Source: a virus. Taken from it: a stretch of DNA of 24,001 nucleotides. Both the position numbers and the translations under genes were made by a program. This document shows, piece after piece, positions 3,181 to 24,001 of the stretch. The stretch is taken from IMG/VR virus record IMGVR_UViG_3300029327_000005, positions 1 to 24,001 of that record; one strand, given 5' to 3'. Position 1 is the stretch's first letter, and the number at the start of each line of letters is the position of its first letter. The notes below the pieces were generated by a model that was not told where the DNA came from, did not search any database, and saw nothing but the letters and a program-made list of their open reading frames with translations.

Positions 3181-3713
3181 TGTCCGGAGTGTTCACCCCA
3201 TACGTCGCCATCGACGACAAAGACCTCATGCGCAAACTCGCCACGCTGGAGAAACGCGCAGGCGGCCTAGCTCCGATACTCAAGAACATCGGCGAATACA
3301 AAGTCGAGGCCACGCAAGCGCTCTTCGACAAACAGGAAGATCCGCAAGGCGTCAAGTGGGCGGCATTGTCCGATCGTTACAAAAAGAAAAAGAAAGGCCC
3401 CCGAATACTCACCGAAAGCCGCCGCCTGCGCGACTCCATTATCTACGCCGTGCAAAACGGCAACCTCCGCATCGGCACGCCGGTCGTCTATGGAGCCGCC
3501 CATCAATTCGGCTTTAATAAAAGCGTAGCTGTCCCGGCCCACAAGCGCCTGGTCAAAAAAGCCTTCGGTCATGCGCTCAAGTTCCCGGTCTGGTCGCAAG
3601 TCCGCGCCCACACCTTCAATCCCAAGCTTCCGGCCCGGCCATACCTGGGATGGAACGACGCCGACCGGGCAGAAATCCGGGCAATAGTCCAGGACCATTT
3701 GGAGATGGATTGA
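3180..3713 (+). CDS. G: Phage virion morphogenesis protein, Mu gpG-like
   Basis: 177 residues. The motif set is typical of the gpG/tail completion family: DPQGVKWAAL, then basic KKKKKGPRILTES, RLRDSI, a GTPVVYGAAHQFG segment and C-terminal PARPYLGW. In Mu, gpG is a minor morphogenesis protein between F and the I protease, which is its place here. I chose the ATG at 3180, which overlaps the portal stop as TAATG and has GGAG at 3168-3171, over an in-frame GTG at 3141. Its exact job in head completion or head-tail joining is not settled for the family. Confidence 0.85.
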   Translation: MSGVFTPYVAIDDKDLMRKLATLEKRAGGLAPILKNIGEYKVEATQALFDKQEDPQGVKWAALSDRYKKKKKGPRILTESRRLRDSIIYAVQNGNLRIGTPVVYGAAHQFGFNKSVAVPAHKRLVKKAFGHALKFPVWSQVRAHTFNPKLPARPYLGWNDADRAEIRAIVQDHLEMD

Positions 3714-3926
3714 CAAAAGCGCGAAATTCGCCTTCTAGGGCCCGCATGGGCAACAAGGCCACATACCCTCGCGCAAGATACCGGTCGGCGCACACACGGA
3801 AATTTAAACGGGGTTTAAATGGGGTTTCGGAAACGGGCGCACCAAAAAGTTGAACGGCTTCAAGTCGAGCTGACAAAGAAGGGGGTGTACGGTGCGGATA
3901 TCGCACCGTACCAAACGGAGAGTTGA
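3714..3926 (+). promoter_or_regulatory. Non-coding gap between G and I, candidate late regulatory region
   Basis: 213 bp without a credible gene inside a tightly packed operon. A perfect TTGACA overlaps the G stop codon (3710-3715), but the matching -10 is poor. There is a GCGAA-A-TTCGC palindrome (3721-3731), two direct repeats TTTAAAYGGGG (3803-3813 and 3814-3824) followed by TTTCGGAAACGGG, and a 10-bp perfect hairpin at 3887-3911. Mu has a late promoter (PI) between G and I that needs the activator C, so a comparable promoter here is plausible but not shown. A 67-codon reading frame over the gap has no coding features. Confidence 0.4.
3887..3911. repeat. Perfect 10-bp palindrome before gene I
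   Basis: GTACGGTGCG and CGCACCGTAC flank a five-base spacer (GATAT), ending 15 bases before the I start codon. No T-run follows on either strand, so it is not a classical intrinsic terminator. It could be an mRNA hairpin that protects the transcript or affects I translation, or a binding site for a dimeric regulator. Confidence 0.75.
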
Positions 3927-4952
3927 ATGAAGATTTTGATAATGGATAACGGGCTTGGTCGGGCACTCAACAATGCCATCACAGATGCCTGCCGCATGGC
4001 GCTCAATTACGAAATGCCCCAGGACGGCACAGCTCCGGAATGGATTGAACTCCTTCCCGCCGGACAGGTCATCACCGGCCGCGATGGCCGCACCTGGATC
4101 AACGAACAGCCTGAAGCAGTGCTGGCCGCCTTTGCCGCCGAAGGCAAGGACATTCCCATCGACTGGGAACATTCCAGCGAATTGAAAGCCCGCGAGGGCG
4201 AAGAAGCTCCGGCAGCCGCTTGGATCAAACAAATGGAAATCCGCGACGGCGGGTCCATCTGGGGCCGGGTCGAGTGGACCGCCAGGGGAGCGGCAAGCGT
4301 ATCCAGCAAGGAATATCGCTATCTCTCGCCCGTGTTCGCCTTCGACATCCAATCCCGCCGCATCATGCGCATCACATCCTGCGGCCTGACCAATCAGCCG
4401 AACCTTTATCTGGACGCCCTTAACCGCGCACAAACCAAGGAGGAATCACCTATGGATTTAGCCCAGCTGCTGGCGGCCCTCGGATTGCCGCCCACCGCCA
4501 CATTCGCCGAAGCCCTCAACCACATTACCAAAGTCAAGGGAGAACTCGCCACAGCCCTCAACTCGGCGCAATCCCCGCCCCTGGACAAATTCGTCCCGCG
4601 CGCCGATTACGACACCGCCCTCAACCGCGCCACCGCCGCCGAGTCCAAACTGGCCGACCAGGCCAAGGCCCGGCTTGAAACCGCCATCAACACCGAGATC
4701 GATGCCGCGCTCAAAGCGGGCAAGATCACCCCGGCCACCAAGGATTATCACATCGCTTCGTGCCGGGCGGAGGGCGGCCTGGAACGGTTCAAGGCCTTCG
4801 TCGCAGCCGCACCGGCAATCGCAGGCGACAGCAACCTGGACGACAAAGACCCCAGCAAAACCACCACCGCCCTGAATGCTGAAGAGCAAAAAATCTGCGA
4901 CATGATGGGTCTCAGTGTCGAAGACTACAAAAAAGCCAACGGCATCAAATAA
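3927..4952 (+). CDS. I: Mu gpI-like capsid maturation protease
   Basis: 341 residues. The N-terminal half has the I-protein pattern DWEHSSE, then PAAAWIKQMEIRDGG, GRVEWTARG and KEYRYLSPVF. This family cleaves the scaffold and itself during capsid assembly. The C-terminal half is Ala-rich and probably coiled (about residues 176-300), and doubles as the scaffold domain with its own start (see 4452). GGAG at 3917-3920 sits six bases before the ATG at 3927. A second ATG at 3942 lacks a comparable site. It follows the G-I gap and precedes the cement and capsid genes, the normal Mu order. Confidence 0.88.
   Translation: MKILIMDNGLGRALNNAITDACRMALNYEMPQDGTAPEWIELLPAGQVITGRDGRTWINEQPEAVLAAFAAEGKDIPIDWEHSSELKAREGEEAPAAAWIKQMEIRDGGSIWGRVEWTARGAASVSSKEYRYLSPVFAFDIQSRRIMRITSCGLTNQPNLYLDALNRAQTKEESPMDLAQLLAALGLPPTATFAEALNHITKVKGELATALNSAQSPPLDKFVPRADYDTALNRATAAESKLADQAKARLETAINTEIDAALKAGKITPATKDYHIASCRAEGGLERFKAFVAAAPAIAGDSNLDDKDPSKTTTALNAEEQKICDMMGLSVEDYKKANGIK
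4437..4443 (+). promoter_or_regulatory. Internal ribosome binding site for the nested scaffold
   Basis: AAGGAGG, a near-ideal Shine-Dalgarno sequence, lies eight bases before an in-frame ATG (4452) in the middle of the I gene. It is stronger than the site of the full-length start. Confidence 0.8.
4452..4952 (+). CDS. Z: Nested scaffold protein, Mu gpZ-like (in-frame internal start in I)
   Basis: 166 residues identical to the C-terminal half of the I product, beginning MDLAQLLAALG. In Mu, gpZ is made from an internal start within I and serves as the assembly scaffold, so the protease carries a scaffold tail and is recruited into the prohead. The AAGGAGG at 4437-4443 and the position just after the last protease motif support the same arrangement here. 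The protein is rich in Ala, Lys and Glu with predicted helices (ATAAESKLADQAKARLETA), as expected of a scaffold. It should be made in excess over full-length I because its ribosome site is stronger (inference). Confidence 0.8.
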   Translation: MDLAQLLAALGLPPTATFAEALNHITKVKGELATALNSAQSPPLDKFVPRADYDTALNRATAAESKLADQAKARLETAINTEIDAALKAGKITPATKDYHIASCRAEGGLERFKAFVAAAPAIAGDSNLDDKDPSKTTTALNAEEQKICDMMGLSVEDYKKANGIK

Positions 4953-4983
4953 AGACCGGTGAACCCGGCAAAGGAGCAACTGA

Positions 4984-5382
4984 ATGGCACTAACCGCAGA
5001 CAGAACAACACCGCGCCGTGGCGGCGACCTGCTCGAACGTCCCGCAGCCGCGTCAAAGAAGTTTTACGCCGGTTCCCTGGTCGCCGTGGACGCCTCCGGC
5101 AATGCCACCCCCGGCGCAACCGCCACCGACATCCTGGGCGTAGGCCGCTGCCGCGAACAGGTCGACAACTCCAGCGGAGCGGCCGGAGCAGTCACCGTCC
5201 CCATTGAAAAAGGCGTTTTCCGCTGGACGAACTCCGCCACCGATCCGGTCACCGCCGCAGACATCGGCAAGGATTGCTACATCGTCGACGACTTCACCGT
5301 GTCCCATACCGACACCAATCAGTCCGTGGCAGGCAAGGTGTTCGATGTGGACTCGCAGGGTGTCTGGGTCGACATGAGATAA
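4984..5382 (+). CDS. Probable capsid cement (decoration) protein, DUF2190-like
   Basis: 132 residues, lying between scaffold/protease and major capsid, where many phages encode the capsid decoration protein. A small beta-rich sequence with KKFYAGSLVAVD near the N terminus, GVFRWTN in the middle and a C-terminal GKVFDVDSQGVWVDM fits the DUF2190-type cement fold. AAGGAG stands just before the ATG (4970-4975). No signal peptide or membrane segment is seen. The assignment rests mostly on context and general resemblance. A head fibre or other capsid-surface protein is the main alternative. Confidence 0.6.
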   Translation: MALTADRTTPRRGGDLLERPAAASKKFYAGSLVAVDASGNATPGATATDILGVGRCREQVDNSSGAAGAVTVPIEKGVFRWTNSATDPVTAADIGKDCYIVDDFTVSHTDTNQSVAGKVFDVDSQGVWVDMR

Positions 5383-5413
5383 CCATTACCAACTGATCAA
5401 AGGAGCAAAATTC

Positions 5414-6307
5414 ATGGATATTAACGCAACTAATTTTCAAGCCCTTTACCGGGCGTTTAACACCGCGTTTCAGAGCGGTTTTGCTGGCGTTTCTCCGCAG
5501 TGGCAGAAAATTGCCACACTGGTTCCCTCCAGCGCATCCCAAGAAGATTACGGTTGGATCGGTGATATCCCCGCCATGCGGGAATGGATCGGGGACCGAG
5601 TAATCAACGCGCTAAAAAATCACGGCTACAGCATTAAAAACAAAAAGTTCGAACTGACCCAGGCAGTAGATCGAACCAAGATCGAAGACGATCAAGTCGG
5701 TATTTATACACCTCTGTTTCAGATGATGGGCGACTCAGCCGCCCGTCACCCCGATGAACTGATTTTCGCCCTACTGCTGTTGGGTTTCAGCACCAACTGC
5801 TACGACGGCCAATACTTCTTCGACAGCGATCATCCCGTGGTCCAGGCCGATGAAACCACCGCCAGCATTTCCAACTATCAGGCCGGAACCGGTAACGCCT
5901 GGTTTCTCCTGGACACCAGCCGTCCCCTGAAACCGCTCATTTTTCAGCGCAGAAAAGCGCCCAAATTCGTGGCGTTAAATCAGGAAACCGACACAAACGT
6001 CTTCATGCGTGACGAATTCCTCTACGGCATCGATTGCCGCGATAACGCCGGATTCGGTTTCTGGCAAATGGCTTTTGGCAGCAAGGATACTCTTGATTCC
6101 GCAAATTTCGAGGCGGCCTATGACGCTATGACGGGGTTCAAAAAAGACAAAGGCGCTCCCCTGGGCATCAAACCCAACCTCCTGGTAGTCGGCTCAACCA
6201 ACGCCAGCGCAGGCCGCAAGATCGTCGAAGCCCAGTTGATCAACGGCGGCGACAGCAACACCAATTTCAAGCGCGTCGAACTGCTCGAATGCCCCTGGTT
6301 GCCGTAA
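5414..6307 (+). CDS. T: Major capsid protein, Mu gpT-like
   Basis: 297 residues, close to the usual 300 or so of the Mu gpT family. Recognisable features are the N-terminal NATNFQALYRAFNTAFQSGF, the WIGDIPAMREWIGDR segment and a C-terminal GIKPNLLVVG followed by LECPWL. It is the shell subunit of the icosahedral head. AAAGGAG lies before the ATG (5399-5405). It is followed by a long inverted repeat (6313-6375), which could attenuate or stabilise transcription after this highly expressed gene (inference). Confidence 0.93.
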   Translation: MDINATNFQALYRAFNTAFQSGFAGVSPQWQKIATLVPSSASQEDYGWIGDIPAMREWIGDRVINALKNHGYSIKNKKFELTQAVDRTKIEDDQVGIYTPLFQMMGDSAARHPDELIFALLLLGFSTNCYDGQYFFDSDHPVVQADETTASISNYQAGTGNAWFLLDTSRPLKPLIFQRRKAPKFVALNQETDTNVFMRDEFLYGIDCRDNAGFGFWQMAFGSKDTLDSANFEAAYDAMTGFKKDKGAPLGIKPNLLVVGSTNASAGRKIVEAQLINGGDSNTNFKRVELLECPWLP

Positions 6308-6312
6308 AAACA

Positions 6313-6375
6313 GGAACTGGGGATTAGGGACCGGGGACTGGTAAAGGCTTGTTCCGGTCCCTGGTCCCCGGTTCC
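6313..6375. repeat. Long intergenic inverted repeat, copy 1
   Basis: Two 22-base arms (6313-6334 and 6354-6375) pair with only three differences, and all three would be G-U pairs in the transcript. The core is GGGACCGGG-like. The loop is 19 bases. The same family recurs at 8229-8284, 9750-9791 and 10660-10705. No T-run follows, so it is not a typical intrinsic terminator. Confidence 0.85.
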
Positions 6376-6398
6376 CGGTCTCAAACAAAGGAGTCACT

Positions 6399-6797
6399 AT
6401 GAAAAAACTGCTTATCTGCATCATCACCTTGCTGGCCTTCGCCGCCACCGCCCTGGCCGCCGGAAAGGTCGTCGTCGATCCCAATAACCGCACCCTCGGC
6501 TATCACTCCCCGGCTCCCGCCTCGGCTGTCTGCACGACAACCACAACCACCAAGGGGACCATCGCCACCGTCAATACCGCCGGTTACAGCACACTCTGCT
6601 GGGAAGCGTCCGATAGCACCAACGCGGCCAAGCGCGTCAAGCGCCACCTCAACAGCAACACCGCCTACCTGCCCGGCACCGGCGGCTGCTTCGGTCTCAA
6701 CAACAATGTCAGCGCGGTAACCTGGAAACCTTATAGCAGCGCATCAGCCGCCTACACCGTCTGCTACGACCTCCAGAGCGGAGGCAAAACGCCATGA
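6399..6797 (+). CDS. Exported small protein of unknown function (phage accessory gene)
   Basis: 132 residues with a clear Sec signal peptide: MKKLLICIITLLAF, a hydrophobic core, then ATALAAG, with likely cleavage near residue 21. The mature part (about 110 residues) is Thr/Ser/Asn-rich, apparently beta-structured, and has four cysteines (in AVCTTT, TLCWEA, GGCFGL and TVCYDL) that could form two disulfides in the periplasm. AAAGGAG precedes the ATG (6387-6393), and the last codons overlap the next gene as ATGA. Mu has nothing obvious here between T and gp35, so it looks like an inserted accessory gene. A Sec signal is unusual in a capsid operon. A cell-surface role, such as exclusion of other phages, is conceivable but unproven. 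I do not recognise a family. Confidence 0.75.
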   Translation: MKKLLICIITLLAFAATALAAGKVVVDPNNRTLGYHSPAPASAVCTTTTTTKGTIATVNTAGYSTLCWEASDSTNAAKRVKRHLNSNTAYLPGTGGCFGLNNNVSAVTWKPYSSASAAYTVCYDLQSGGKTP

Positions 6798-7006
6798 TCC
6801 GGATCACCTCAAAACAGGACGGTTTCCGCCGTTGCGGGATAGCCCATTCCAAAGGTCCAACCGAGCATAAAGACGAGACATTTACTCCCGATCAAATCAA
6901 AGCTCTCCAAGAAGAACCGATGCTGGTGATTGAGATTGTCAATGAAGACCAGAAAGAAGGGGAAGGAAAATCGGGAAAGAAAAAAGGCGAAACCGACTCC
7001 AAATAG
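6794..7006 (+). CDS. Mu gp35-like protein (FluMu N-terminal domain type)
   Basis: 70 residues. The first half (MIRITSKQDGFRRCGIAHSK, then FTPDQIKALQEEPMLVIEIV) resembles the small FluMu/gp35 domain found after gpT in Mu-like phages. The C terminus is a short charged tail (DQKEGEGKSGKKKGE). It starts inside the end of the exported-protein gene (ATGA overlap), so translation is probably coupled. The function of the family is not firmly known. Some relatives extend into a longer protein, so this is a minimal version. Confidence 0.7.
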   Translation: MIRITSKQDGFRRCGIAHSKGPTEHKDETFTPDQIKALQEEPMLVIEIVNEDQKEGEGKSGKKKGETDSK

Positions 7007-7050
7007 TCCCTTGCGTCCCTGGAGTCCTTGAAGTCCCTGAAGTCCCTGAA
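7006..7050. repeat. Tandem 9-bp repeat, about five units of GTCCCTGAA
   Basis: Five head-to-tail nine-base units begin at 7006, 7015, 7024, 7033 and 7042. The last two are identical (GTCCCTGAA) and the earlier three differ by one to three bases. It begins at the last base of the gp35-like stop codon and fills the gap before gp36. Such a microsatellite is open to slippage, but since it is non-coding the effect would be on spacing only. Confidence 0.85.
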
Positions 7051-7063
7051 GCAAACAAACAAA

Positions 7064-7083
7064 GGCGGCCCCTCCGGGCCGCC
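7064..7083. repeat. GC-rich hairpin before gp36
   Basis: GGCGGCCC and GGGCCGCC form a perfect 8-bp stem with loop CTCC, ending 14 bases before the gp36 start codon. No T-run follows. Its position just upstream of a start with no clear Shine-Dalgarno sequence suggests it could influence translation of gp36, or act as a 3' protecting structure for the upstream message. Confidence 0.75.
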
Positions 7084-7097
7084 CGGATCACAACACC

Positions 7098-7529
7098 ATG
7101 CCCTACACCACACTCGACAACATAATCAACCAGATCAGCGAAGCAACCGTCATTCAGCTTACCGACGATTATCAATCGGAAGCCGTCGACGGCAACCGCA
7201 TCGCCGAAGCCATCACCGACGCCGACGCCATCATCGACGGCTATTGCTCCGGCCGGTACGTGGTCCCGTTCAATCCGGTACCGGCCATCATCGCCAAATG
7301 CAGCCTGGACATAGCCATTTACAACCTGTACGCCCGCCGGGTCGAAACCATGCCCGAGCTGCGAAAGGATAACTACAACAACGCCGTCAAGCTGCTGCAA
7401 TCCATCGCCAGGGGCGACATCCTTCTCAACGGCACGACAACCCCGCCGCCAGCGCCCGACACGGCCCGTAGCGGGATGACAACAACTCAACCACGACAAT
7501 TCACCCGCGACACCCTGCGAGGGTTTTAA
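7098..7529 (+). CDS. Mu gp36-like protein (DUF1320)
   Basis: 143 residues. The pattern MPYTTLDNIINQI, then DDYQSEAVDG, AITDADAIIDGYCSGRYVVP and CSLDIAIYNLYARR is that of DUF1320, a head-tail connector-like family following the capsid gene. It probably sits at the neck, by position. The start has no clear Shine-Dalgarno sequence and is preceded by the 7064-7083 hairpin. No alternative in-frame start lies nearby. The C-terminal tail after residue 120 is Pro/Thr-rich and likely flexible. Confidence 0.85.
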   Translation: MPYTTLDNIINQISEATVIQLTDDYQSEAVDGNRIAEAITDADAIIDGYCSGRYVVPFNPVPAIIAKCSLDIAIYNLYARRVETMPELRKDNYNNAVKLLQSIARGDILLNGTTTPPPAPDTARSGMTTTQPRQFTRDTLRGF

Positions 7530-7531
7530 AT

Positions 7532-8071
7532 ATGTCCGACGAACAACCCGACATGCTCACCGCCATCGAACAAGCCGTACTTACGCGCCTGACCGATAAT
7601 ATCCCGGCCTTCAAAAGCTCCGCCGTCCAAAAGGACAGCCGCCAGCTTTTGCGCGACACCTCCGTGGCCGTAGCCGTCCTTGACGGTAAATTCAACAAAC
7701 TCGGCCAGGCCTGTTTCCGCAACGAATGCACGGTCAGCGTACTGCTCAAGTTCAAAAACATGCAATCCGAGGAAGCCCGGCGCAAGGGTATCAATCCCCT
7801 GGTCATTGCCGCTGTCCAGTATCTGCTCGGTCAAAAGCTCGGCCTCTCCATCGGCGCACTGGAACCGGTCAGATTCCGCGACGTCACCACCGAGGACAAG
7901 TATGAAGCAGGCATCATCGAATACCTGCTGGAGTTCTCCACCTGGTTCGATATCCGCAGCAAACTGGATGACGAAGCCCTGGGCGATCTGGTGACCATGG
8001 CAATCGATTACCTGCTCAAACCCGGCGACGACAATGTCGACGCAACCGATATCCTGACCACCATTGTTTAA
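7532..8071 (+). CDS. Mu gp37-like protein (DUF1834)
   Basis: 179 residues. The N-terminal LTAIEQAVLTRL and the middle AVAVLDGKFN followed by FRNECTVSVLLKFKNMQSE fit DUF1834, the gp37 family between gp36 and the sheath. By position it is a tail terminator or neck protein (inference). It starts two bases after the gp36 stop, with GAGGG overlapping the end of gp36 (7519-7523). No membrane segment is seen. Confidence 0.82.
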   Translation: MSDEQPDMLTAIEQAVLTRLTDNIPAFKSSAVQKDSRQLLRDTSVAVAVLDGKFNKLGQACFRNECTVSVLLKFKNMQSEEARRKGINPLVIAAVQYLLGQKLGLSIGALEPVRFRDVTTEDKYEAGIIEYLLEFSTWFDIRSKLDDEALGDLVTMAIDYLLKPGDDNVDATDILTTIV

Positions 8072-8081
8072 GGAGGCTTCA

Positions 8082-8318
8082 ATGCTCGTTAAAACCAATC
8101 CCGGCGAAAAATGTCCCCGCGAGGACAATCCCCGCACCTACATCACCGATGACCCGCAAGGCGTAACGGTCCCGGACAATGCTTACTACCGCCGCCTGGT
8201 CGCCGACGGCAGCCTGATCCTGGTACCAGGTACCGGGGACCAGGAACCGGCAGAAGCCGTTACCGGTTCTCAGCCCCAAGTTCCCAGTTCCCGTGCGACT
8301 GAAAGGAGCACCAAATAA
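8082..8318 (+). CDS. Mu gp38-like small protein (DUF2635) with a repeat-encoded tail
   Basis: 78 residues. The first 50 or so (MLVKTNPGEKCPREDNPRTY, then VTVPDNAYYRRLVADGSLIL) match the small DUF2635 family placed before the sheath gene in Mu-like phages. I chose ATG 8082, with AAGGAGG at 8070-8076, over a TTG at 8064. The remaining 25 or so residues (Pro/Gln/Gly-rich, from about LVPGTGDQEP) are encoded by the copy-2 inverted repeat (8229-8284), so the natural C terminus seems to have been replaced or extended by repeat DNA. The stop overlaps the sheath start as TAATG. Confidence 0.8.
   Translation: MLVKTNPGEKCPREDNPRTYITDDPQGVTVPDNAYYRRLVADGSLILVPGTGDQEPAEAVTGSQPQVPSSRATERSTK
8229..8284. 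repeat. Inverted repeat, copy 2, inside the gp38-like gene
   Basis: Left arm 8229-8250 and right arm 8263-8284 are 22 bases each, with about seven mismatches, and have the same GGxACCGGGGACCAGGAACCGG-type core as the other copies. It is the most degenerate of the four and lies within coding sequence, which it reads through in frame. Confidence 0.7.
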
Positions 8319-9739
8319 TGGCATCCGAAAACATCAGTTTCGACAACATCCCCAGCACGATCCGCAAGCCGGGCGCATACTTCGAATTCAACACCACATT
8401 GGCTGTCAACAGCCTCCCGGCCAATGTGCAGCCCGCCCTGATCATAGCCCAGCGCCTCACCGCCGGAACCGTCGCCGCCCTGCTGCCGACGCGGGTCTAT
8501 TCGTCCAGCGACGCCGCCACCTACTTCGGCCGCGGCTCCCTGGCTCACCGCATGGTCAAGGCTGCGCTCAAAGCAAACCCGTATCTGGATCTTACGGTCT
8601 GCGCCCTTGACGACGGAGCCGGAGCCGCCGCAACCGGCACCATCACCATCGCCACTGCGGCCACCGGTTCCGGCGCCCTCTCGCTCTACATCGGCAACGA
8701 TCTGATCCAGATCGCCATCGCCTCCGGAGACGCCGTCGCCGCCATTGCCACCGCGCTGGCCGCCGCTGTCAACGACCTTCCCGATCTGCCGGTCACCGCC
8801 GCCGCCAACCTGGGCGTCGTCACCCTCACCGCCCGCAACAAAGGCCTGGTTGCCAACCAGATCGACATCGAGGCCAGCATCACCGCCAATATCGGCAGCA
8901 CCGTCACCGTCGTGGCCATGGCAGGCGGCACCATTGCCCCCAGCATCCAAACCGCCCTGGACAAGGTCTACGCCAGCCAGTACAGCCTGATCGTCACCCC
9001 CTACAATGACGCAACCAGCCTGGCCACCCTGCGCGACCATCTCGACGCCGTATCCGGTCCCATCGAGCAGCGCCCCGGCGTCGGCTACTACGCCATCGAC
9101 ACATCTCTGGCCAGCGCCATCACCCTGGCCACCGGCATCAACAGCGGCCGCATCGTCGGCGCATTGTTGCGCGGCACCCGTTCCCCCAGTTTTGAACTAG
9201 CAGCCGCCTATGCCGCCATACGCGCCTCCGAATCCGACCCGGCCCGGCCGCTCAACTACCTAGTGCTCACAGGAATCGCCGCCCCGCTTCAAGCCCAACG
9301 CCTCACCAGGCAAGAGCAGGAAAGCGCCCTTGCCAACGGCGTAGCGCCGCTCCAGGTCAACTCCAGCCAACAGGTGCAGATCGTCCGCGCCATCACCACC
9401 TACGTCGAGAACATCGCCGGAGTCCCCGATATCAGCCTGCTGGACGTCACTACCATCGACACCCTCGATTACACCCGCAGATCAGTGCGCGAACGCCTGC
9501 TGCTCCGCTTTCCCAGGGCCAAGCTCAGTACCAAAACCCCGCCCAGGGTGCGCACCGAAGTGCTTGACGTCCTGCGCAAACTGGAGCGCCTGGAAATCCT
9601 CGAAAACGTCGACGCCTACAAATCCGGCGTCATCTGCGAGCGTGACGAACAGGACCCGAACCGCCTCAACATCCGCATCCCTGCCGACGTTGTCAACGGC
9701 CTGCACGTCTTCGCCGGTAGAATCGATTTGATTCTGTAA
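8318..9739 (+). CDS. L: Contractile tail sheath protein, Mu gpL-like
   Basis: 473 residues, near the length of Mu gpL (about 495). The N-terminal ISFDNIPSTIRKPGAYFEFN, the central YSLIVTPYNDATSLATLRDH and the C-terminal NRLNIRIPADVVNGLHVFAGRIDL are typical of the sheath family. It polymerises around the tube and contracts to drive the tube into the cell. Start ATG 8318 overlaps the previous stop and has AAGGAG at 8303-8308. Ala/Thr-rich stretches at about residues 105-200 form the variable outer domain. A copy of the inverted repeat follows the stop. Confidence 0.93.
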   Translation: MASENISFDNIPSTIRKPGAYFEFNTTLAVNSLPANVQPALIIAQRLTAGTVAALLPTRVYSSSDAATYFGRGSLAHRMVKAALKANPYLDLTVCALDDGAGAAATGTITIATAATGSGALSLYIGNDLIQIAIASGDAVAAIATALAAAVNDLPDLPVTAAANLGVVTLTARNKGLVANQIDIEASITANIGSTVTVVAMAGGTIAPSIQTALDKVYASQYSLIVTPYNDATSLATLRDHLDAVSGPIEQRPGVGYYAIDTSLASAITLATGINSGRIVGALLRGTRSPSFELAAAYAAIRASESDPARPLNYLVLTGIAAPLQAQRLTRQEQESALANGVAPLQVNSSQQVQIVRAITTYVENIAGVPDISLLDVTTIDTLDYTRRSVRERLLLRFPRAKLSTKTPPRVRTEVLDVLRKLERLEILENVDAYKSGVICERDEQDPNRLNIRIPADVVNGLHVFAGRIDLIL

Positions 9740-9749
9740 TCAGGAATCG

Positions 9750-9791
9750 GGAACCGGGGACGGGAAAAAGATTTTTCCGGTCCCCGGTTCC
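9750..9791. repeat. Inverted repeat, copy 3, between L and M
   Basis: Two 20-base arms (9750-9769, 9772-9791) pair with one mismatch, with the same GGAACCGGGGAC core and an AAAAA/TTTTT inner end. The apparent loop is only two bases, so the innermost A-T pairs would open. The 93-bp L-M gap has no gene. Confidence 0.85.
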
Positions 9792-9832
9792 TGGTCCTTC
9801 GTCCCCATAGCGACAAAAAGGGGCGTATACCC

Positions 9833-10192
9833 ATGGAAGCATACATCACCTCAGTAACCCTCGAAATAAACGGCGAGTTGCTGGAAGACTTCAACGCCTT
9901 TACCGAAAAAGAGCGCGTCTTCAAAAAGACCGTCAACCTGATGAACACCACCGGTACCATCAAGGTAAAAGGCCGCCACAATTTCAGCCTCGATTATGTC
10001 GTCCCTGCCGACAAGGCCGAATTCGATTTTGAAGGGGTCGAGGACGGCACCGTCACCATCGACTACGAAAACGGCAAGCGCATCAGTTTCGGCGAAGTTG
10101 AATGCCTCTCCATCGGTGAAGCAAAATTCGACGGCGACAAGGAAGTCGTAAAAACAATCGAATTCGCCGCCGGCACCCGGACAGAGGAGTAA
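9833..10192 (+). CDS. M: Tail tube protein, Mu gpM-like
   Basis: 119 residues, matching the length of Mu gpM (118). Small and beta-rich, with EAYITSVTLEINGELLEDF, an FKKTVNLMNTTGTIKVKGRH segment and a C-terminal DGDKEVVKTIEFAAGTR. It forms the inner tube inside the sheath. AAGGGG precedes the ATG by about 11 bases. It lies directly after the sheath gene, as in other contractile phages. Confidence 0.9.
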   Translation: MEAYITSVTLEINGELLEDFNAFTEKERVFKKTVNLMNTTGTIKVKGRHNFSLDYVVPADKAEFDFEGVEDGTVTIDYENGKRISFGEVECLSIGEAKFDGDKEVVKTIEFAAGTRTEE

Positions 10193-10195
10193 GCC

Positions 10196-10570
10196 ATGGA
10201 ACAAACCGGATCATTCCCCAACGGCATCATCAACGAAAAAGGTGCAATTTGCCGGGATTTCACCCTGGTTGAACGCACCTTCCGTCAGATCCTCGAGGTA
10301 GCCCACGACAAGGCCATTAATAAAGATCTGTTATCAGATCCGTCCTACTACGACGCCGCCATCATCTCCAAGCGTCTGAAGATTGATGGCATCGACAGCC
10401 TGACCCCCGACATGGTTCTGGATCTGGACGGCGCTGACGGCGACACCCTGGCCAATGCAATAATGGAACTCGACCAGCGGAGGGCGGAGTTTCGAAAACA
10501 ACAACAAGCCGCTCCGAAAACAACTGATAGCACTGGTGAAGCTGGGAGTCCCCTGGAAGACTGCACTTGA
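10196..10570 (+). CDS. Tail assembly chaperone, Mu gp41-like
   Basis: 124 residues. A segment ICRDFTLVERTFRQILEVA and a following ITRKLK-like helix (AAIISKRLKIDGIDSLT) with MVLDLDGADGDTLANAI fit the phage tail assembly chaperone family between tube and tape measure. In Mu this gene is translated on by frameshifting into a longer product, and the same layout is visible here (see 10464). GAGGAG precedes the start. The final 25 residues after RRAEFRKQQQ are probably noise downstream of the shift site. Confidence 0.8.
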   Translation: MEQTGSFPNGIINEKGAICRDFTLVERTFRQILEVAHDKAINKDLLSDPSYYDAAIISKRLKIDGIDSLTPDMVLDLDGADGDTLANAIMELDQRRAEFRKQQQAAPKTTDSTGEAGSPLEDCT

Positions 10571-10688
10571 CATGCCCCTGGCGGAAGGCGACAGCCTGCT
10601 GCTGAATCACCAGGAAATAGTAGATTCCAAACCGGACAAACAGAAAGTACGTAAAAAAACTGGGACCAGAAACCGGAAAAAGCAGTAA
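10464..10688 (+). CDS. Frameshift extension of the gp41-like chaperone
   Basis: This frame (one base ahead of gp41, that is +1 or -2) is open from 10464 to the TAA at 10686 and encodes RKQLIALVKLGVPWKTALDM, then PLAEGDSLLLNHQEIVDSK, which reads like the second part of a two-part chaperone. It has no good start codon of its own: the only ATG (10572) would lose the conserved part. A +1 or -2 shift within 10464-10567 would fuse it to gp41. Candidate sites are TTT-C at 10490-10493, just after an SD-like GGAGGG (10479-10484), and AAA-A at 10517-10520. Mu is known to use a frameshift of this direction. The last dozen residues come from inverted repeat copy 4. Confidence 0.7.
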   Translation, partial: WNSTSGGRSFENNNKPLRKQLIALVKLGVPWKTALDMPLAEGDSLLLNHQEIVDSKPDKQKVRKKTGTRNRKKQ

Positions 10689-10705
10689 CCGGTCCCCGGT
10701 CCCAG
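10660..10705. repeat. Inverted repeat, copy 4, before the tape measure gene
   Basis: Left arm 10660-10676 and right arm 10689-10705 are 17 bases each with three mismatches; core CTGGGACC...ACCGG. It spans the stop codon of the frameshift extension (10686-10688). Confidence 0.8.
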
Positions 10706-10727
10706 ATCCCCAGTCCCCGAGGCAACA

Positions 10728-12593
10728 ATGGCTGACATGAAACTGTTCATAGAACTGCTGGCCCGTTCCACCGGCCTGAAACGTGAACTCAGCGACTCCG
10801 AAAGCAGATTTCGCCGTTTCGGCGGCGTGGCCCAACAGGAAATGTCAAGGATCAAACAGGCCTCAAGCTCGCTCCAGGGCAAACTGGCCGCACTCGGCCT
10901 CACCGTCGGAGCGCTCCAGCAGCTCCGCATGTCTGCACAATTGGACAAAGGCCTCACGCAGATCAAACAGACTGCCGGGGAAACCGGCGACGTAGTTAAA
11001 GGGCTACGCAAGGAATTTTTCGAGATGTCCCGCCAGACCGGCCGTGACGTGGACGGGATGAAGACCGGCTTCGATTCCCTGATCCAGTCCGGCCAATCCT
11101 GGAGAGCGGCCCTGGAATCGACCAAAGGCATCAACATCGCCAACGCCGTCACCGGAGCCAATGAAAAGACCCTGGCCGGAGGCCTCACCGTCGGTGCAAC
11201 CGCCTACAACATCGATCTGGAAAAACCGGGGCAAGCCCTGGCACTGCTGGACAAAATGACCGTTGCCGGACGTTTGGGCAATGCCGAGCTGGAAAACCTC
11301 TCCGACATCTTCGCCCGAGTCGGCGTCAACGCTTCCAGCGCAGGCATGAGTTTTGACAAAACTCTGGCTTTTATCGAAGCCCTTTCCATGGTCGAGCGTC
11401 AGCCCGAACGCCTGGCCACCCTGGCCGATTCCACCCTGCGGTTATTCACCAATCTGCGTTATATGGCACAAGCCCAGAAAAGCACAGGCGTCAAGTTCTT
11501 CGACGCCAAGGGCGCACGCCGCGACACCGTTGAGGTATTCAAGGATATCAAAACCAAATGGGACAAGCTCAAGACCGACCGCGACCAAGCCATCTTCATC
11601 CAAAAAGCATTCGGCAAGGCCGACCTTGACACCATCAAGGGCTTGAAAACCCTGTTGCAAGGGAACTCGCTTAACAAGATTCAGGATTTTTCCAAACAGA
11701 TCGGGAACGCATCGGGCACCCTTGAAAAAGACCTCCCCGATGCCATCAACAACGCCATTGACCAGACCGGACGGTTGAAAACCGTTCTGCGACAGGCGGC
11801 CGATGAATTCGCCCAGCCAATCAACCGGACCATTTCCAACATCGTACAATTCGGCCTCGATAAAAAAACAAATGGCGGCCTGGAGCTATCCGGAAAACAA
11901 ATGCTGGGGGGCACTGCCGCCCTTGTTGGCGGCACCTATCTGGCCGCCCGCATTGGCAACACAGCACTACGGGGCATCGCTCAGCGCCTTCTGTCAAAAG
12001 GCGCTTCCACCGCCATCGGAGTGGCCGAAGGCAAAGCCCTTCAGGCCGCTGCCGGTGTTACCCCGGTATTCGTCACCAACTGGCCCGGCTCAATGGGCGG
12101 ATCAGCGTTCGGACCGAAAACCAGCGGCCCATTCAACCCCAAGCAGTGGGGCGGCGGATCAATACGAACGGCAGGCAGCGTCGCCGGTGGAGCCGCAAGC
12201 ACACACATTGGCGCGGCAATTGGCACCATCGCCCCTGCCGCCTTTGCCGCCACCGTCGCTTATGGATCAGTCAAAACCGGTCAATATCTGGCAAAAAACG
12301 AAGCGTCATGGCGCAGCACCAAAGACCTGAATGATATCCGTGCGAGACAAATGGTCATGGGCGGCGGCCCAAATTCATTTCAGGTGCGGACAATTGACGC
12401 CGAACTGGCCCGCCGTTGGCAAAATGGATCGAACGCCCGCCCCCAGCCGCAGAAAAACGAAATCAAGATCGAATTGCAGATTGATAGCGGCGGTCGAGTT
12501 TTTGCCCGCAGCAACGACATGAACACCAGCGCCGTCATTGGCGGCAAACGCGGCGATTTCTTCAGCGCCCTCATGACCACCGAGGCAATGTGA
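10728..12593 (+). CDS. Tail tape measure protein, Mu gp42-like
   Basis: 621 residues. The N-terminal half (about residues 60-330) has the TP901-type tape measure core, with SAQLDKGLTQIKQTAGETGD, LRKEFFEMSRQTG and a FIEALSMVERQPERLATLAD segment. Hydrophobic Gly/Ala-rich stretches lie around residues 390-415 and 490-515 (AAIGTIAPAAFAATVAYG) and may insert in the membrane during DNA entry. It sets tail length and is folded by the gp41 chaperone encoded just before. The stop TGA overlaps the start of the next gene (TGATG). The start ATG at 10728 has only a weak GAGG upstream (10719-10722); a second ATG at 10737 is in frame. Confidence 0.88.
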   Translation: MADMKLFIELLARSTGLKRELSDSESRFRRFGGVAQQEMSRIKQASSSLQGKLAALGLTVGALQQLRMSAQLDKGLTQIKQTAGETGDVVKGLRKEFFEMSRQTGRDVDGMKTGFDSLIQSGQSWRAALESTKGINIANAVTGANEKTLAGGLTVGATAYNIDLEKPGQALALLDKMTVAGRLGNAELENLSDIFARVGVNASSAGMSFDKTLAFIEALSMVERQPERLATLADSTLRLFTNLRYMAQAQKSTGVKFFDAKGARRDTVEVFKDIKTKWDKLKTDRDQAIFIQKAFGKADLDTIKGLKTLLQGNSLNKIQDFSKQIGNASGTLEKDLPDAINNAIDQTGRLKTVLRQAADEFAQPINRTISNIVQFGLDKKTNGGLELSGKQMLGGTAALVGGTYLAARIGNTALRGIAQRLLSKGASTAIGVAEGKALQAAAGVTPVFVTNWPGSMGGSAFGPKTSGPFNPKQWGGGSIRTAGSVAGGAASTHIGAAIGTIAPAAFAATVAYGSVKTGQYLAKNEASWRSTKDLNDIRARQMVMGGGPNSFQVRTIDAELARRWQNGSNARPQPQKNEIKIELQIDSGGRVFARSNDMNTSAVIGGKRGDFFSALMTTEAM

Positions 12594-13900
12594 TGTCCCT
12601 CTACGACGCAGCCATAGACGACATTCCCCTGGAGATAGAAACCCTCGACGATCAATTCGAGGTTTCCATCGCCCGGCACGAATTTCCCTGCAAAGACGGC
12701 GCATTGCTGGAAAACATGGGCCAAAAGGCCCGCACGGTAAACATCCGCTGTCACTTCTGGGATAACGGCAGCCATCTGACCTACAACAACCACATCAAAC
12801 TGGTCAACCACCTCAAGGAAAAGTCGCTGTTCACTCTGATTCATCCCATGTACGGCTCTATGCAAGGCATGGTCGAGCGCGTAGGAGTCCGCGCCGATGA
12901 TCGGGAGATGACCGCCGAAGTCGATATTGCCTTTGTCGAAAACCTTCGCCAGGATACGGCCGAGGTGGAATACGAAGATGTCGAAGTAGCCGCCGATCAG
13001 GCGTTGATAGACACCCAGGACGAACAGATGGACCAGTTCTTGAACGATGCCCAAAACGAGCTGGGCGCAGAGGCTACCGAAATCAATGACCAGGATCTGG
13101 ACTCGGAGCAGGGCATTCTGGAGCAATTCAGCAGCATCAGTCAGAAAGCCCGCGCCTGGCTCAAAGAAGTTGAATCCGCCGTGTCCACCTTTGAAGCAAC
13201 ACTTAACGACGTAACCCAGCCGGTAAACAGCCTGATCTCCACCATCACCTATGGCCTCAAGTTGCCCGGCCGGGTAATCGGCTCCATAGCCCGCATGGTC
13301 GACCGCTTCGTTGCGCTCTATAAAACAGTCACCACAGCGCCCAGCCGGTTCATGCGCAACCTGCGCAGCGCGGTCGACAATCTGATCTCCAAATTCGGTT
13401 TTTCCAGCAGCATCCAGAAACACCTCCGCGTCGCCGTTGCCACCCAGGGCGCTCAGGCCGTGGCCCAGTACTACGCCACTGACGAAACCCAGCGCCAGAA
13501 ATTGCGCAGGCTGGAAAAGCAAACCACCTTCGACACCCTGGGCCGCTATATCAATCCGCCCGTCGCCGAACCGGTCTATACCGTGAACGAGCTTGAGGAC
13601 TCCGTCTACATCACCCGCGACATGCTCCAGGAAGCCATCGACAGCGACGGAGGACGAAGCATTTCCAGCCTGAAAACCATGGCGCGCATTCTCATCGATC
13701 ACGTCAGCAACATCAAACTGGAGCGCGAAAAGATCATTACCGTATCGCTGGATAACCCCATGCCGCTGCACATCGTCTGCCTGCGTTACGGTCTTGATTA
13801 TCACTACGCCGACCGCATCGTCGCCATCAACAGCATTCCCCGGCCCAACTACACCAGCGGCTCTTTGCAAATCTACATCAACTCAGGAAGCGCAGCATGA
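12593..13900 (+). CDS. N: DNA circularisation / baseplate protein, Mu gpN-like
   Basis: 435 residues. The N-terminal region, about residues 10-110 (EIETLDDQFEVSIARHEFPC, ENMGQKARTVNIRCHFW and FTLIHPMYGSMQGMV), matches the DNA circularisation N-terminal domain, which in contractile phages includes the baseplate-tail adaptor role. The middle (about 150-330) is helical. Near the end, PLHIVCLRYGLDYHYADRIV resembles the LysM-like module of tail hub proteins. I chose ATG 12593, overlapping the tape measure stop with GAGG at 12582-12585. A GTG three bases earlier is less likely. Its stop overlaps the next ATG (ATGA). Confidence 0.85.
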   Translation: MSLYDAAIDDIPLEIETLDDQFEVSIARHEFPCKDGALLENMGQKARTVNIRCHFWDNGSHLTYNNHIKLVNHLKEKSLFTLIHPMYGSMQGMVERVGVRADDREMTAEVDIAFVENLRQDTAEVEYEDVEVAADQALIDTQDEQMDQFLNDAQNELGAEATEINDQDLDSEQGILEQFSSISQKARAWLKEVESAVSTFEATLNDVTQPVNSLISTITYGLKLPGRVIGSIARMVDRFVALYKTVTTAPSRFMRNLRSAVDNLISKFGFSSSIQKHLRVAVATQGAQAVAQYYATDETQRQKLRRLEKQTTFDTLGRYINPPVAEPVYTVNELEDSVYITRDMLQEAIDSDGGRSISSLKTMARILIDHVSNIKLEREKIITVSLDNPMPLHIVCLRYGLDYHYADRIVAINSIPRPNYTSGSLQIYINSGSAA

Positions 13901-20704: not shown

Positions 20705-20737
20705 AAAGGGGGCTTAAATTTACGTTTAGCCCCCTTT
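20705..20737. terminator. Terminator at the end of the phage late operon
   Basis: AAAGGGGGCT pairs with AGCCCCCTTT around a short AT-rich loop (stem 20705-20714 and 20728-20737), with A-rich sequence before and TTT after, so it can work in both directions. It would stop late transcription from entering the tRNA-Gly gene, which reads toward the phage. Confidence 0.8.
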
Positions 20738-20750
20738 ACTGATGTTTCTC

Positions 20751-20792
20751 TTACTACCAAATCTCGCGCCACTTACTACCAAATCTCGCGCC
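20751..20792 (-). repeat. Two 20-bp direct repeats, probable transposase sites R1 and R2
   Basis: TTACTACCAAATCTCGCGCC occurs exactly twice (20751-20770 and 20773-20792), 22 bp apart start to start. In Mu the right end carries two adjacent 22-bp MuA-binding sites in the same orientation. Read inward from the end, the sequence begins TGTAAAGCGGCGCGAG, which resembles my recollection of the Mu right end (TGAAGCGGCGC). A third site is not seen. Confidence 0.8.
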
Positions 20793-20805
20793 GCTTTACA
20801 ATAAA
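20793..20805. other. Phage right terminus and likely target duplication
   Basis: The inner sequence GCTTTACA ends at 20800, with the CA-3' (5'-TG on the other strand) terminus of Mu-type elements. The following five bases, ATAAA (20801-20805), would be the target duplication. The other copy, at the left end, is outside the window. Confidence 0.65.
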
Positions 20806-20851
20806 ACGACGAAACCCCGGCCGCATGCGAAAGAACATGCGAAAGCCGGGG
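20801..20851 (-). terminator. Intrinsic terminator of tRNA-Gly
   Basis: On the minus strand CCCCGGC and GCCGGGG (20845-20851 and 20815-20821), extended by inner GCATG/CATGC pairs, form a strong hairpin followed by TTTCGTCGTTTTAT. It lies about 38 bases downstream of the tRNA 3' end. The phage terminus adjoins the end of this T-rich tract. Confidence 0.8.
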
Positions 20852-20889
20852 CTTTGTATCCATAACCGCTTGAAACGGTCGATGTTATT

Positions 20890-20964
<75 letters not shown>

Positions 20965-21056: not shown

Positions 21057-21851
21057 TCACCCTCCCCTGCCACGAAAGGGAAGCACCAGCAGGTCAAGCA
21101 ATCTCAGTCGAAGGGGATCGCGGAACTCCTTCAGACCGATGACGATTCCATCATGGCCATGTTTGGGCTGATCGCGATAGGTGCCCAGAAGACGATCCCA
21201 CCAGGGCAGATTGAAACCGAAATTGCTGTCGGTTTCTTGCGGAATGGTTGAATGATGCACGCGGTGCATGTCAGGCGTGACGATGCCGAGCCGCAGCCAG
21301 CGGTCAATGGCAACCGGAATGCGCAGGTTGCCATGATTGAAAAGCGAGGTGGCGTTGAGTACGATCTCGAAAACCAGCACTGCCGCGGCCGGAGCGCCGA
21401 GCAGCATCACGGCAGCCGTTTTGATAAGTAGGGATAACAGTATTTCCAAAGGATGAAAGCGGTTGCCGGTGGTGACATCCAGCTCCAGATCGGTATGATG
21501 CATGCGGTGAAAACGCCAGAAGAGCGGGATACGGTGAAAGAGGCGATGTTGCAGGTAGATCAGCAGGTCCAGCGCTAAAAGAGTCAGGATGAACGTGAGC
21601 TGACACGGAAGAGCCAAGAGGTTGAAAAGTCCCCGGCCGCGAGTGTTGGCCATGAGGGCGGTAGCGATGGGCATTACTGGCGTTGCCAACCGGACAACGC
21701 CCACATCAATGGCGGCAATGGCCAGATTAGACAGCCAGCGCGCTATCTTGGAAACAGTGGGCTGGCGGCGTGGCCAGAAGAATTCCGAGCACGCCACCAG
21801 CGTAAATACGATCAGGAAGGAGATGAGGCGTACAACGCTTCCATCTCCCAT
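21057..21851 (-). CDS. Sterol desaturase / fatty acid hydroxylase family membrane protein
   Basis: 264 residues with several hydrophobic segments (about 5-22, 78-100, 138-168). The histidine clusters of this di-iron family are present: H102-x3-H106 (HRLFH), H115-x2-H118-H119 (HRMHH), His133, His173 and H196-x2-H199-H200 (HRVHH). Members oxidise lipid substrates in the membrane with oxygen and an electron donor. The bacterial substrate cannot be named here, and desaturase, hydroxylase or alkylglycerol-type oxygenase are all possible. Its ATG (21849-21851) is three bases after the thrC stop, so the two are probably co-transcribed. tRNA-Gly lies about 90 bp downstream on the same strand with its own promoter candidate. 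Confidence 0.85.
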   Translation of the reverse strand: MGDGSVVRLISFLIVFTLVACSEFFWPRRQPTVSKIARWLSNLAIAAIDVGVVRLATPVMPIATALMANTRGRGLFNLLALPCQLTFILTLLALDLLIYLQHRLFHRIPLFWRFHRMHHTDLELDVTTGNRFHPLEILLSLLIKTAAVMLLGAPAAAVLVFEIVLNATSLFNHGNLRIPVAIDRWLRLGIVTPDMHRVHHSTIPQETDSNFGFNLPWWDRLLGTYRDQPKHGHDGIVIGLKEFRDPLRLRLLDLLVLPFRGRGG

Positions 21852-21854
21852 GTG

Positions 21855-23240
21855 CTATACCGCGTGGTCTATGACAAACCGGCGGACCTGCTCCAGATCG
21901 GCGTCCATTACGGCACAGCGCGTCTCCTTGCCTGACAGGGCGGCGATTGATTCGGGCACCGGAGCCGGCGTTCCGACAGCCTTTTCCACAGCATCGCTGA
22001 ACTTGGCCGGATGTGCCGTAGCCAAACAGACACGGGCCACGTCGGCCGGAAACAGGTCCAATGCCGCCCGAACGCCAACTGCAGTGTGCGGATCAAGCAG
22101 ATAACCGGTTTCTTTATTGAAGCTGCCAATGGTTTCCAGTGTCGCGGCCTGATCCACCGAAGCGGAACAGAAATCAGCACGAACCTGCTCCATCTCTGCG
22201 GGCGAGAAGGTAATCCGTCCGGTTTCCTTCAGTTCTGCAAAGGCGCGCCGTACGCGGGCAGGGTCTTCGTTGTACAGATGGTACAGATAGCGCTCAAAGT
22301 TGGAGGCCAACTGGATATCCATTGAGGGGGAAACAGTGGCAACCACATTGGCAAGGGAATAATCGCCTTCGTTGATAAAACGGGTCAGAATGTTATTTTC
22401 ATTGGTGGCCAGGAGTAGTTTGCCGATGGGCAGCCCCATGCGTTTTGCCACATACCCGGCAAAGATGTCGCCGAAGTTGCCGGTGGGGACCGAGAAGGAT
22501 ACCGGCTGATCGCCTTTGTCGGTCACCCGCAGCCAAGCGTAGAAGTAATAGACCACCTGGGCCAGAACACGGGCCCAGTTGATGGAGTTGACCGCACCCA
22601 GGGAGTACTTTTCCTTGAAATCCAGGTCATTGAACAGGGTCTTGACGATATTCTGGCAATCGTCGAAGGTACCGCGAATAGCGATATTGTGAACATTGGC
22701 ATCCGTAACGGTTATCATCTGCTGTGCCTGCACCGGCGAGGTCTTACCGTGAGGGTGCAGAATGAAGATGGTAATTCCCTTTTTGCCGCGAACCCCATGG
22801 ATGGCGGCACTGCCGGTATCTCCCGACGTAGCTCCTACAATATTGAGATGTTGTTCCCGCTCCGCCAGGATATACTCGAACAAATTGCCCAAAAGTTGCA
22901 GGGCTACGTCCTTGAACGCCAATGTGACGCCGTGGAAGAGTTCGAGGATATGGACCCCGTCCTGACGCACCACCGGTGTCACCTCGGGGTGGCTGAACGT
23001 GGCATAGGAACGGTCGATCAACCCTTTGAGCACATCAGCCGGGATGTCGTCCACAAATCGCGATATAATCTGCCAGGAAAGCTCGGGATAGGAAAGCGAG
23101 CGCCAGCTATCCAATTGCTGGCAGCTGATGTGGGGGTATGATTCAGGCAGAAGCAAGCCGCCATCGGTGGCCAGCCCCATCATGACGGCATCCTTGAAGC
23201 CGATTGGCTGTATGCCGCCGCGAGTACTGATGTAACGCAT
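21855..23240 (-). CDS. thrC: Threonine synthase
   Basis: 461 residues. It converts O-phospho-L-homoserine to threonine and phosphate with pyridoxal phosphate, the last step of threonine synthesis in the cytoplasm. The N terminus MRYISTRGG and the early TDGGLLLPE are typical of the long (E. coli/fungal type) class. The PLP lysine is Lys110 in HGVTLAFKDVA, and the phosphate-binding loop is SGDTGSAA at about 139-146. SVPTGNFGDIFAGYVAKRMG is the conserved region near residue 248. I chose ATG 23240 over a GTG at 23243, because AAAGGAA is well placed for it. Length is normal with no frameshift. It heads a probable two-gene unit with the downstream desaturase-family gene. Confidence 0.96.
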   Translation of the reverse strand: MRYISTRGGIQPIGFKDAVMMGLATDGGLLLPESYPHISCQQLDSWRSLSYPELSWQIISRFVDDIPADVLKGLIDRSYATFSHPEVTPVVRQDGVHILELFHGVTLAFKDVALQLLGNLFEYILAEREQHLNIVGATSGDTGSAAIHGVRGKKGITIFILHPHGKTSPVQAQQMITVTDANVHNIAIRGTFDDCQNIVKTLFNDLDFKEKYSLGAVNSINWARVLAQVVYYFYAWLRVTDKGDQPVSFSVPTGNFGDIFAGYVAKRMGLPIGKLLLATNENNILTRFINEGDYSLANVVATVSPSMDIQLASNFERYLYHLYNEDPARVRRAFAELKETGRITFSPAEMEQVRADFCSASVDQAATLETIGSFNKETGYLLDPHTAVGVRAALDLFPADVARVCLATAHPAKFSDAVEKAVGTPAPVPESIAALSGKETRCAVMDADLEQVRRFVIDHAV

Positions 23241-23278
23241 CACGTATTCCTTTCAGGATAAATTCGAGACAAAAGAGC

Positions 23279-23308
23279 TTATCATGATTTATTAAATTTT
23301 GAAAGCAA
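23279..23308 (-). promoter_or_regulatory. Candidate promoter of thrC
   Basis: On the minus strand TTGCTT (23303-23308) and TGATAA (23279-23284) are 18 bases apart within an AT-rich gap, about 39 bases before the thrC ATG. A match by eye only. Confidence 0.3.
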
Positions 23309-23345
23309 AGGGACTTATTTTCGAAGCATTCCCGATAGCCATTGA

Positions 23346-23960
23346 TCAGTTGGCGGAAGCATTCTGACTCGGAGCCGGGCGTAATTCACCGGGCGCAAAC
23401 AGAAAAAATACGCGAAACATGCAGTATTTGTAGAATTCGCCGAAGAGCAACTGAAAACTTCCCTGATGACTCCACCAATCTTCTTTCAGATTTTTGGAAT
23501 CGACCGGATAGGGGTAGATGGCTATATCCTTTGGCAGCGCGTTGCGCAGCAGGATCGAAGCACGCTTCATGTGATACCGGGACGTAATCAGCACTATCGA
23601 ACGAACTTCCTTTGACATGATCACGTCCCGGCCGAAAATGGCGTTTTCCAGCGTGTTGCGTGAAGCTCTTTCCAGAATCACCCCATTTGCCGAGGGATCT
23701 CCTGGACGGGGATGGTACAAGTCGGAACGACGCACTGTGGGATCGACTCCGATGAAAAACAGCCACTGTCCCTTGCCTTCGCGGTAAAGCCGCACCCCCT
23801 CATCCACCCGCCCCTTGCCGCCGGCCAGAACGACAATCGCATCGGCCTTTACGTCGCGTTGGCGATAGGAAAATGTCTTATAGGTAAAATCGATAAACAA
23901 CATGGCAATGAGAACCAGTGCGAGGAACAGCAATGTGATAAAAGCCTTGATGATATTCAT
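23346..23960 (-). CDS. DUF218 family protein (YdcF/SanA-like), membrane-anchored
   Basis: 204 residues. One N-terminal membrane segment (about residues 5-25, FITLLFLALVLIAMLFI) is followed by a periplasmic or cytoplasmic domain with the DUF218 pattern: ADAIVVLAGG at about 39-48, EGVRLYREGK, ERASRNTLENA and ITSRYHMKRA at about 124-133. Relatives (SanA, ElyC, YdcF) affect envelope integrity and vancomycin sensitivity, but the substrate is not settled. The start ATG 23958-23960 has GGAG six bases upstream. A 105-bp AT-rich gap separates it from thrC, so the two need not share a transcript. Confidence 0.85.
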   Translation of the reverse strand: MNIIKAFITLLFLALVLIAMLFIDFTYKTFSYRQRDVKADAIVVLAGGKGRVDEGVRLYREGKGQWLFFIGVDPTVRRSDLYHPRPGDPSANGVILERASRNTLENAIFGRDVIMSKEVRSIVLITSRYHMKRASILLRNALPKDIAIYPYPVDSKNLKEDWWSHQGSFQLLFGEFYKYCMFRVFFLFAPGELRPAPSQNASAN

Positions 23961-24001
23961 CCTGTCTCCAAATGTTTTTCTTGCAACTCTTCTAACAATT
24001 T

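Follow-up and report, generated by a model that had tools for sequence, protein, structure and literature searches.

The question raised by this locus is why a phage of the Mu type should end a short distance behind a tRNA gene, when Mu is the textbook random inserter. The DNA analysed (hereafter the window) is a 24,001-bp IMG/VR fragment, which holds the right phage end while the left end lies beyond the record. Its features are the following:

1 to 20595, plus strand: Mu-like late region with terminase end, portal/minor head, protease, major head, tail sheath, tape measure, baseplate and tail fibre genes (PHROG)
about 20706 to 20740, plus strand: terminator-like hairpin followed by T, at the end of the late region and left of the repeats (sequence, fold)
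20750 to 20770, plus strand: inner transposase-type end site, R2-like (exact repeat, 22-bp period; homologous pairs in relatives)
20772 to 20792, plus strand: outer transposase-type end site, R1-like (exact repeat, 22-bp period; homologous pairs in relatives)
20793 to 20800, plus strand: phage right terminus GCTTTACA, last base 20800 (..ACA conserved in relatives; boundary of the G652 prophage pair)
20801 to 20805, plus strand: predicted target duplication, ATAA or ATAAA (from relatives; left copy beyond the record)
20801 to 20889, minus strand: host DNA from the phage end to the tRNA gene, with a hairpin resembling a tRNA terminator (minus-strand fold, -29.8 kcal/mol)
20890 to 20964, minus strand: host tRNA-Gly(CCC) gene, 3′ end toward the phage (ARAGORN; syntenic in Desulfuromonadales)
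21057 to 24001, no strand assigned: host chromosomal genes (3.1 kb matching genome G001 at 79% nucleotide identity)

A first reading of this DNA from the sequence alone had described two exact 20-bp direct repeats lying eight bases inside a CA-3′ end, and taken them for the right terminus of a Mu-like phage. The repeats are real: exact copies of TTACTACCAAATCTCGCGCC lie at 20751-20770 and 20773-20792, the window has no third site at up to 3 mismatches, and none of 100 dinucleotide shuffles contained one, although the true identity extends to 21 bp instead of 20 (the preceding C is common to both copies), with a period of 22 bp. Past the second copy, GCTTTACA runs up to the CA-3′ terminus at 20800, eight bases beyond the outer repeat, and ATAAAACG comes next. 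An exact scan of IMG/VR found no exact copy of the 20-mer. Upstream, the PHROG matches to portal (1.5e-131), major head (1.9e-125) and tail sheath (1.7e-164) place the window among Mu-like transposable phages by its Mu-type head and tail genes. The MuA-type DDE transposase and MuB-type ATPase fall beyond the window and were found in relatives with the same ends.

These relatives were gathered by searches with the baseplate protein gpJ, the portal and MuA, one of them (G1386) coming from a search of the alphaproteobacterial class; a gpJ search of 369 genomes of the gammaproteobacterial class gave no match at 1e-40. Aligned with the window, their right ends show the same layout of two sites of about 20 bp spaced 22 bp apart, followed by (T/A)ACA or, in some, GACA, as in the prophage G166 (GTTAGCGCCAAACCTCGCGTCA GTTAGTGCCAAATCTCGCGTCG GCTTACA). 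Left termini, in those relatives long enough to include them, read TGT..., and in five relatives (G166, G098, G142, G241 and G1386) an inverted half-site lies there at a fixed distance. The transposition modules of the relatives encode a transposase of the MuA type and an ATPase of the MuB type, in most cases with a small winged-helix protein as well. With Mu-type genes upstream and the same two-site ends in about twenty relatives, the Mu-like terminus that had been proposed is well supported, and 20750-20800 is the right end of a Mu-like prophage.

The length of the target duplication was likewise approached through the relatives. Genome G652 carries two near-identical prophages whose right parts align at 99% and both stop exactly at GGTACA, whose left ends begin TGTGCC, and whose flanks (CCTGG/CCTGG and TTTAT/TTTAT) are exact 5-bp duplications; G066 also fits a 5-bp duplication, CTTGC/CTTGC. 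Five prophages, if their ends are taken as TG...CA, share four flanking bases only: CTCA in G166 (records L134/L135), GTCG in G098 (L130/L131/L283), ACAG in G142 (L327/L334), GTGC in G241 (L136/L137) and AGAT in G1386 (L369/L373). Shifting the right end by one base recovered a five-base match in only two of the five. The end sites of these five resemble those of the window (CCAAA-type), and because they fit 4 bp better the window duplication may be ATAA. In the same line, the MuA of a gpJ-related record (G690) groups with that of G236 on the side of the MuA tree that holds the five 4-bp prophages, so that ATAA may apply rather than ATAAA. Altogether, we predict either length with equal likelihood, where only ATAAA had been expected. 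Duplications of 5-6 bp have been described for Mu and B3, and the 4 bp of G166, G098, G142, G241 and G1386, if their ends are TG...CA, would be shorter.

As for the surroundings, the window phage ends 89 bp from the 3′ end of the tRNA-Gly(CCC) gene, a neighbour that the first reading had not mentioned, and the similarity to the Desulfuromonadales genome G001 (79% over 3.1 kb) starts at this gene; none of the genomes matched by the host flank was similar enough to reveal the empty site of the window itself. A Mu-like remnant, consisting of the end of A, B and the winged-helix gene, lies in the same orientation at this tRNA-Gly locus in the Desulfuromonadales genome of another species (L009 11143-12203, minus strand).

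In 14 relatives, too, the right end follows a tRNA gene at a distance of 69-232 bp (median 98), and these genes are of many types. With the phage read as the plus strand, the tRNA gene or fragment lies on the minus strand in 15 out of 15 cases, counting the window. This geometry was found at genes for tRNA-Leu (L002), Arg (L158 and L217) and Lys (L171), at the 3′ half of a tRNA gene only (L189) and at a partial tRNA at the contig end (L197). Among prophages of bacterial genomes it was found at tRNA-Arg (G166), Ala (G066), Phe (G098, G142 and G236), Ser (G1386) and, for the two copies within the single genome G652, Asn (G652a) and Pro (G652b). Eight of the 12 genomic prophages with resolved right ends sit behind tRNA genes, against a random expectation of 0.125% per insertion (from the 44 tRNA genes in the 4.39 Mb of G652, with a 250-bp span behind each and orientation counted). 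This gives a binomial tail of 3e-21, which rises to 2e-20 when two prophages left out of the 8/12 (G1238 and G1323, with unresolved right ends and without a tRNA gene in the DNA retrieved) are entered as failures; the kinship of the phages and the attention drawn by tRNA genes weaken these figures but could not plausibly abolish them. The tRNA fraction is inflated in that certain right ends were identified only once a tRNA gene had drawn attention to them.

In seven of 14 intervals between phage end and tRNA gene, the window included (20824-20845), direct repeats of 8-12 bp occur 10-12 bp apart (the others are L002, L171, L217, L189, G142 and G236), which may be integrase arm sites or duplications of terminator loops.

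Not every relative follows the pattern, and the exceptions count against targeting of tRNA genes. Four genomic prophages (G241, G548, G1136 and G1329) are not at such genes, and no tRNA gene was seen at about ten viral contigs (L202, L218, L220, L212, L213, L164, L181, L256, L258 and L262), some with short flanks; some of these contigs may come from virions and represent junctions made in lytic transposition. A degenerate pattern of the ends gave matches in ten stretches of contigs, and no tRNA gene was detected next to any of them. The distance to the tRNA gene is also more variable than in targeting of the Tn7 type.

The explanation that best survives beside target choice, which we nevertheless hold to be unlikely, is that insertion is random as in Mu and that only lysogens at harmless places, such as the 3′ flanks of tRNA genes, persist. 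It would accommodate the relatives found elsewhere in host DNA, including within genes, and the behaviour of Mu itself, whose widely spread insertion undersamples tRNA genes themselves, avoiding the mature sequence, and samples their flanks (PMC7350765). However, 250-bp flanks 3′ of tRNA genes make up about 0.25% of the genome, far below the total of intergenic DNA, and therefore general harmlessness cannot yield eight of 12; nor would survival readily give a single orientation in 15 of 15 cases or both G652 copies at tRNA genes. Slightly less probable still is that the true target is debris of tyrosine-integrase elements at tRNA genes, whose arm sites would attract the transposon. The doubled repeats of half of the intervals, together with the lone tRNA 3′ half of L189, are what such debris might leave, but the other half lack doubled repeats and still lie behind tRNA genes, and the identity of the repeats as arm sites is a guess. 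That the repeats belong to an unrelated IS or transposon adjoining the phage, a reading for which the missing left end leaves room, is highly improbable given that G166, G098, G142, G241, G1386 and the G652 pair each show one Mu-like phage bracketed by ends of the same architecture. The phage itself was also considered as a tRNA-integrating prophage of the tyrosine-recombinase kind and rejected as such, because instead of an attachment core within the tRNA gene there is an end 69-232 bp outside it, and the relatives are bounded by TG...CA and flanked by duplications of 4-5 bp.

We thus return to target choice, which the positions appear to reflect, and put at roughly 80% the probability that the 55 bp are the integrated right end of a Mu-like phage whose lineage selects its target behind tRNA genes in a fixed orientation. 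In this model, the two adjacent sites would bind the MuA-type transposase, with the cleaved CA-3′ end following them, and the phage would have entered the chromosome by transposition just behind the tRNA gene with its right end facing it. The lineage would select target DNA about 70-230 bp downstream of many different tRNA genes in one orientation, by means of a putative target-capture factor that recognises some feature shared by tRNA genes and brings in the transposition complex. Such a common feature is pointed to by the many tRNA types used, and could be the conserved T-arm region or tRNA transcription itself. Candidate selectors are part of MuA, the MuB ATPase and the small winged-helix protein whose gene follows that of MuB. 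The winged-helix protein (phrog_2030) occurs in each of the ten tRNA-inserted modules and is missing from G241, G659 and G660. As the sole selector it was rejected, and it stays only a candidate, because it also occurs in two prophages away from tRNA genes (Fisher p 0.022, phylogenetically confounded) and in D3112-like phages. In the MuA and MuB trees the tRNA-inserted phages do not form one clade. The MuB and winged-helix proteins of a third relative, beside G166 and G066, match Mu-type PHROGs, and neither the winged-helix nor the MuB protein has a sequence relative in the Protein Data Bank. The scanned subset of early proteins from G166 and G066 contained no TniQ, their Pfam results being MuA/MuB-type, DUF3164 or no match. 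It seems to us rather more probable than otherwise that a widespread Mu-like group carries a dedicated selector of tRNA genes of any amino-acid type, placing the phage about 100 bp behind them and belonging to a class outside TniQ/TnsD.

Several known systems help to place this behaviour. Tn7 inserts in a specific orientation downstream of a conserved gene with a transposase and an AAA+ ATPase. The window group would work alike, but it is a phage with MuA/MuB and a looser gap of 69-232 bp, and no TniQ/TnsD was recognised among the few early proteins scanned in its relatives. The yeast elements Ty1 and Ty3 and the Dictyostelium TRE integrate at a distance from many tRNA genes by targeting the Pol III machinery, which, to our knowledge, bacteria do not have; the likeness is only functional and the elements are unrelated to the window phage. 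With Mu the group shares the virion genes, the adjacent end sites of about 22 bp (R1, R2 and R3 in Mu) and, in the relatives, the TG...CA ends, a short duplication and MuA/MuB-type proteins. It differs in site sequence, in the 4-bp duplications that fit some relatives, and in its frequent position behind tRNA genes in a single orientation, in contrast to the widely spread insertion of Mu. The closest named MuA matches, at about 34-35% identity, are the Pseudomonas phages of the D3112/DMS3 type, which have the same winged-helix protein after MuB (phrog_2030). However, lytic insertion of the D3112-group phage Ab30 is widely distributed with BIME-linked hotspots, no orientation bias being shown at hotspot 11 and no link to tRNA reported (PMC5977238), in contrast with the tRNA genes and fixed orientation of the window group. 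The Citromicrobium phages phiA and phiB also combine biased sites at integration (a 40-bp zone of one hypothetical gene for phiA, six hotspots for phiB, with 5-bp duplications) with chromosome-wide lytic transposition, although tRNA genes are not implicated there (PMC12486242). In the open full-text literature, a coverage that leaves out most subscription papers and bioRxiv, we found no earlier report of Mu-like phages targeting tRNA genes.

If target choice is confirmed, transposition of the MuA/MuB type would be steerable to a universal safe site, as with Tn7, offering a natural source of safe-harbour insertion systems. Moreover, it would explain how such phages become lysogenic without breaking genes, and transposable phages would join the elements that compete for tRNA loci.

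Two viral records also show phage ends or modules close to one another. On the minus strand of L258, inverted copies of the end-site motif occur within about 200 bp after the right end at 4460-4492, which suggests adjacent or tandem phage ends. In L272 (G674:C1), two complete MuA-MuB modules lie close together at 3585-12893, as would be expected had a transposable phage or element inserted next to or within another one.
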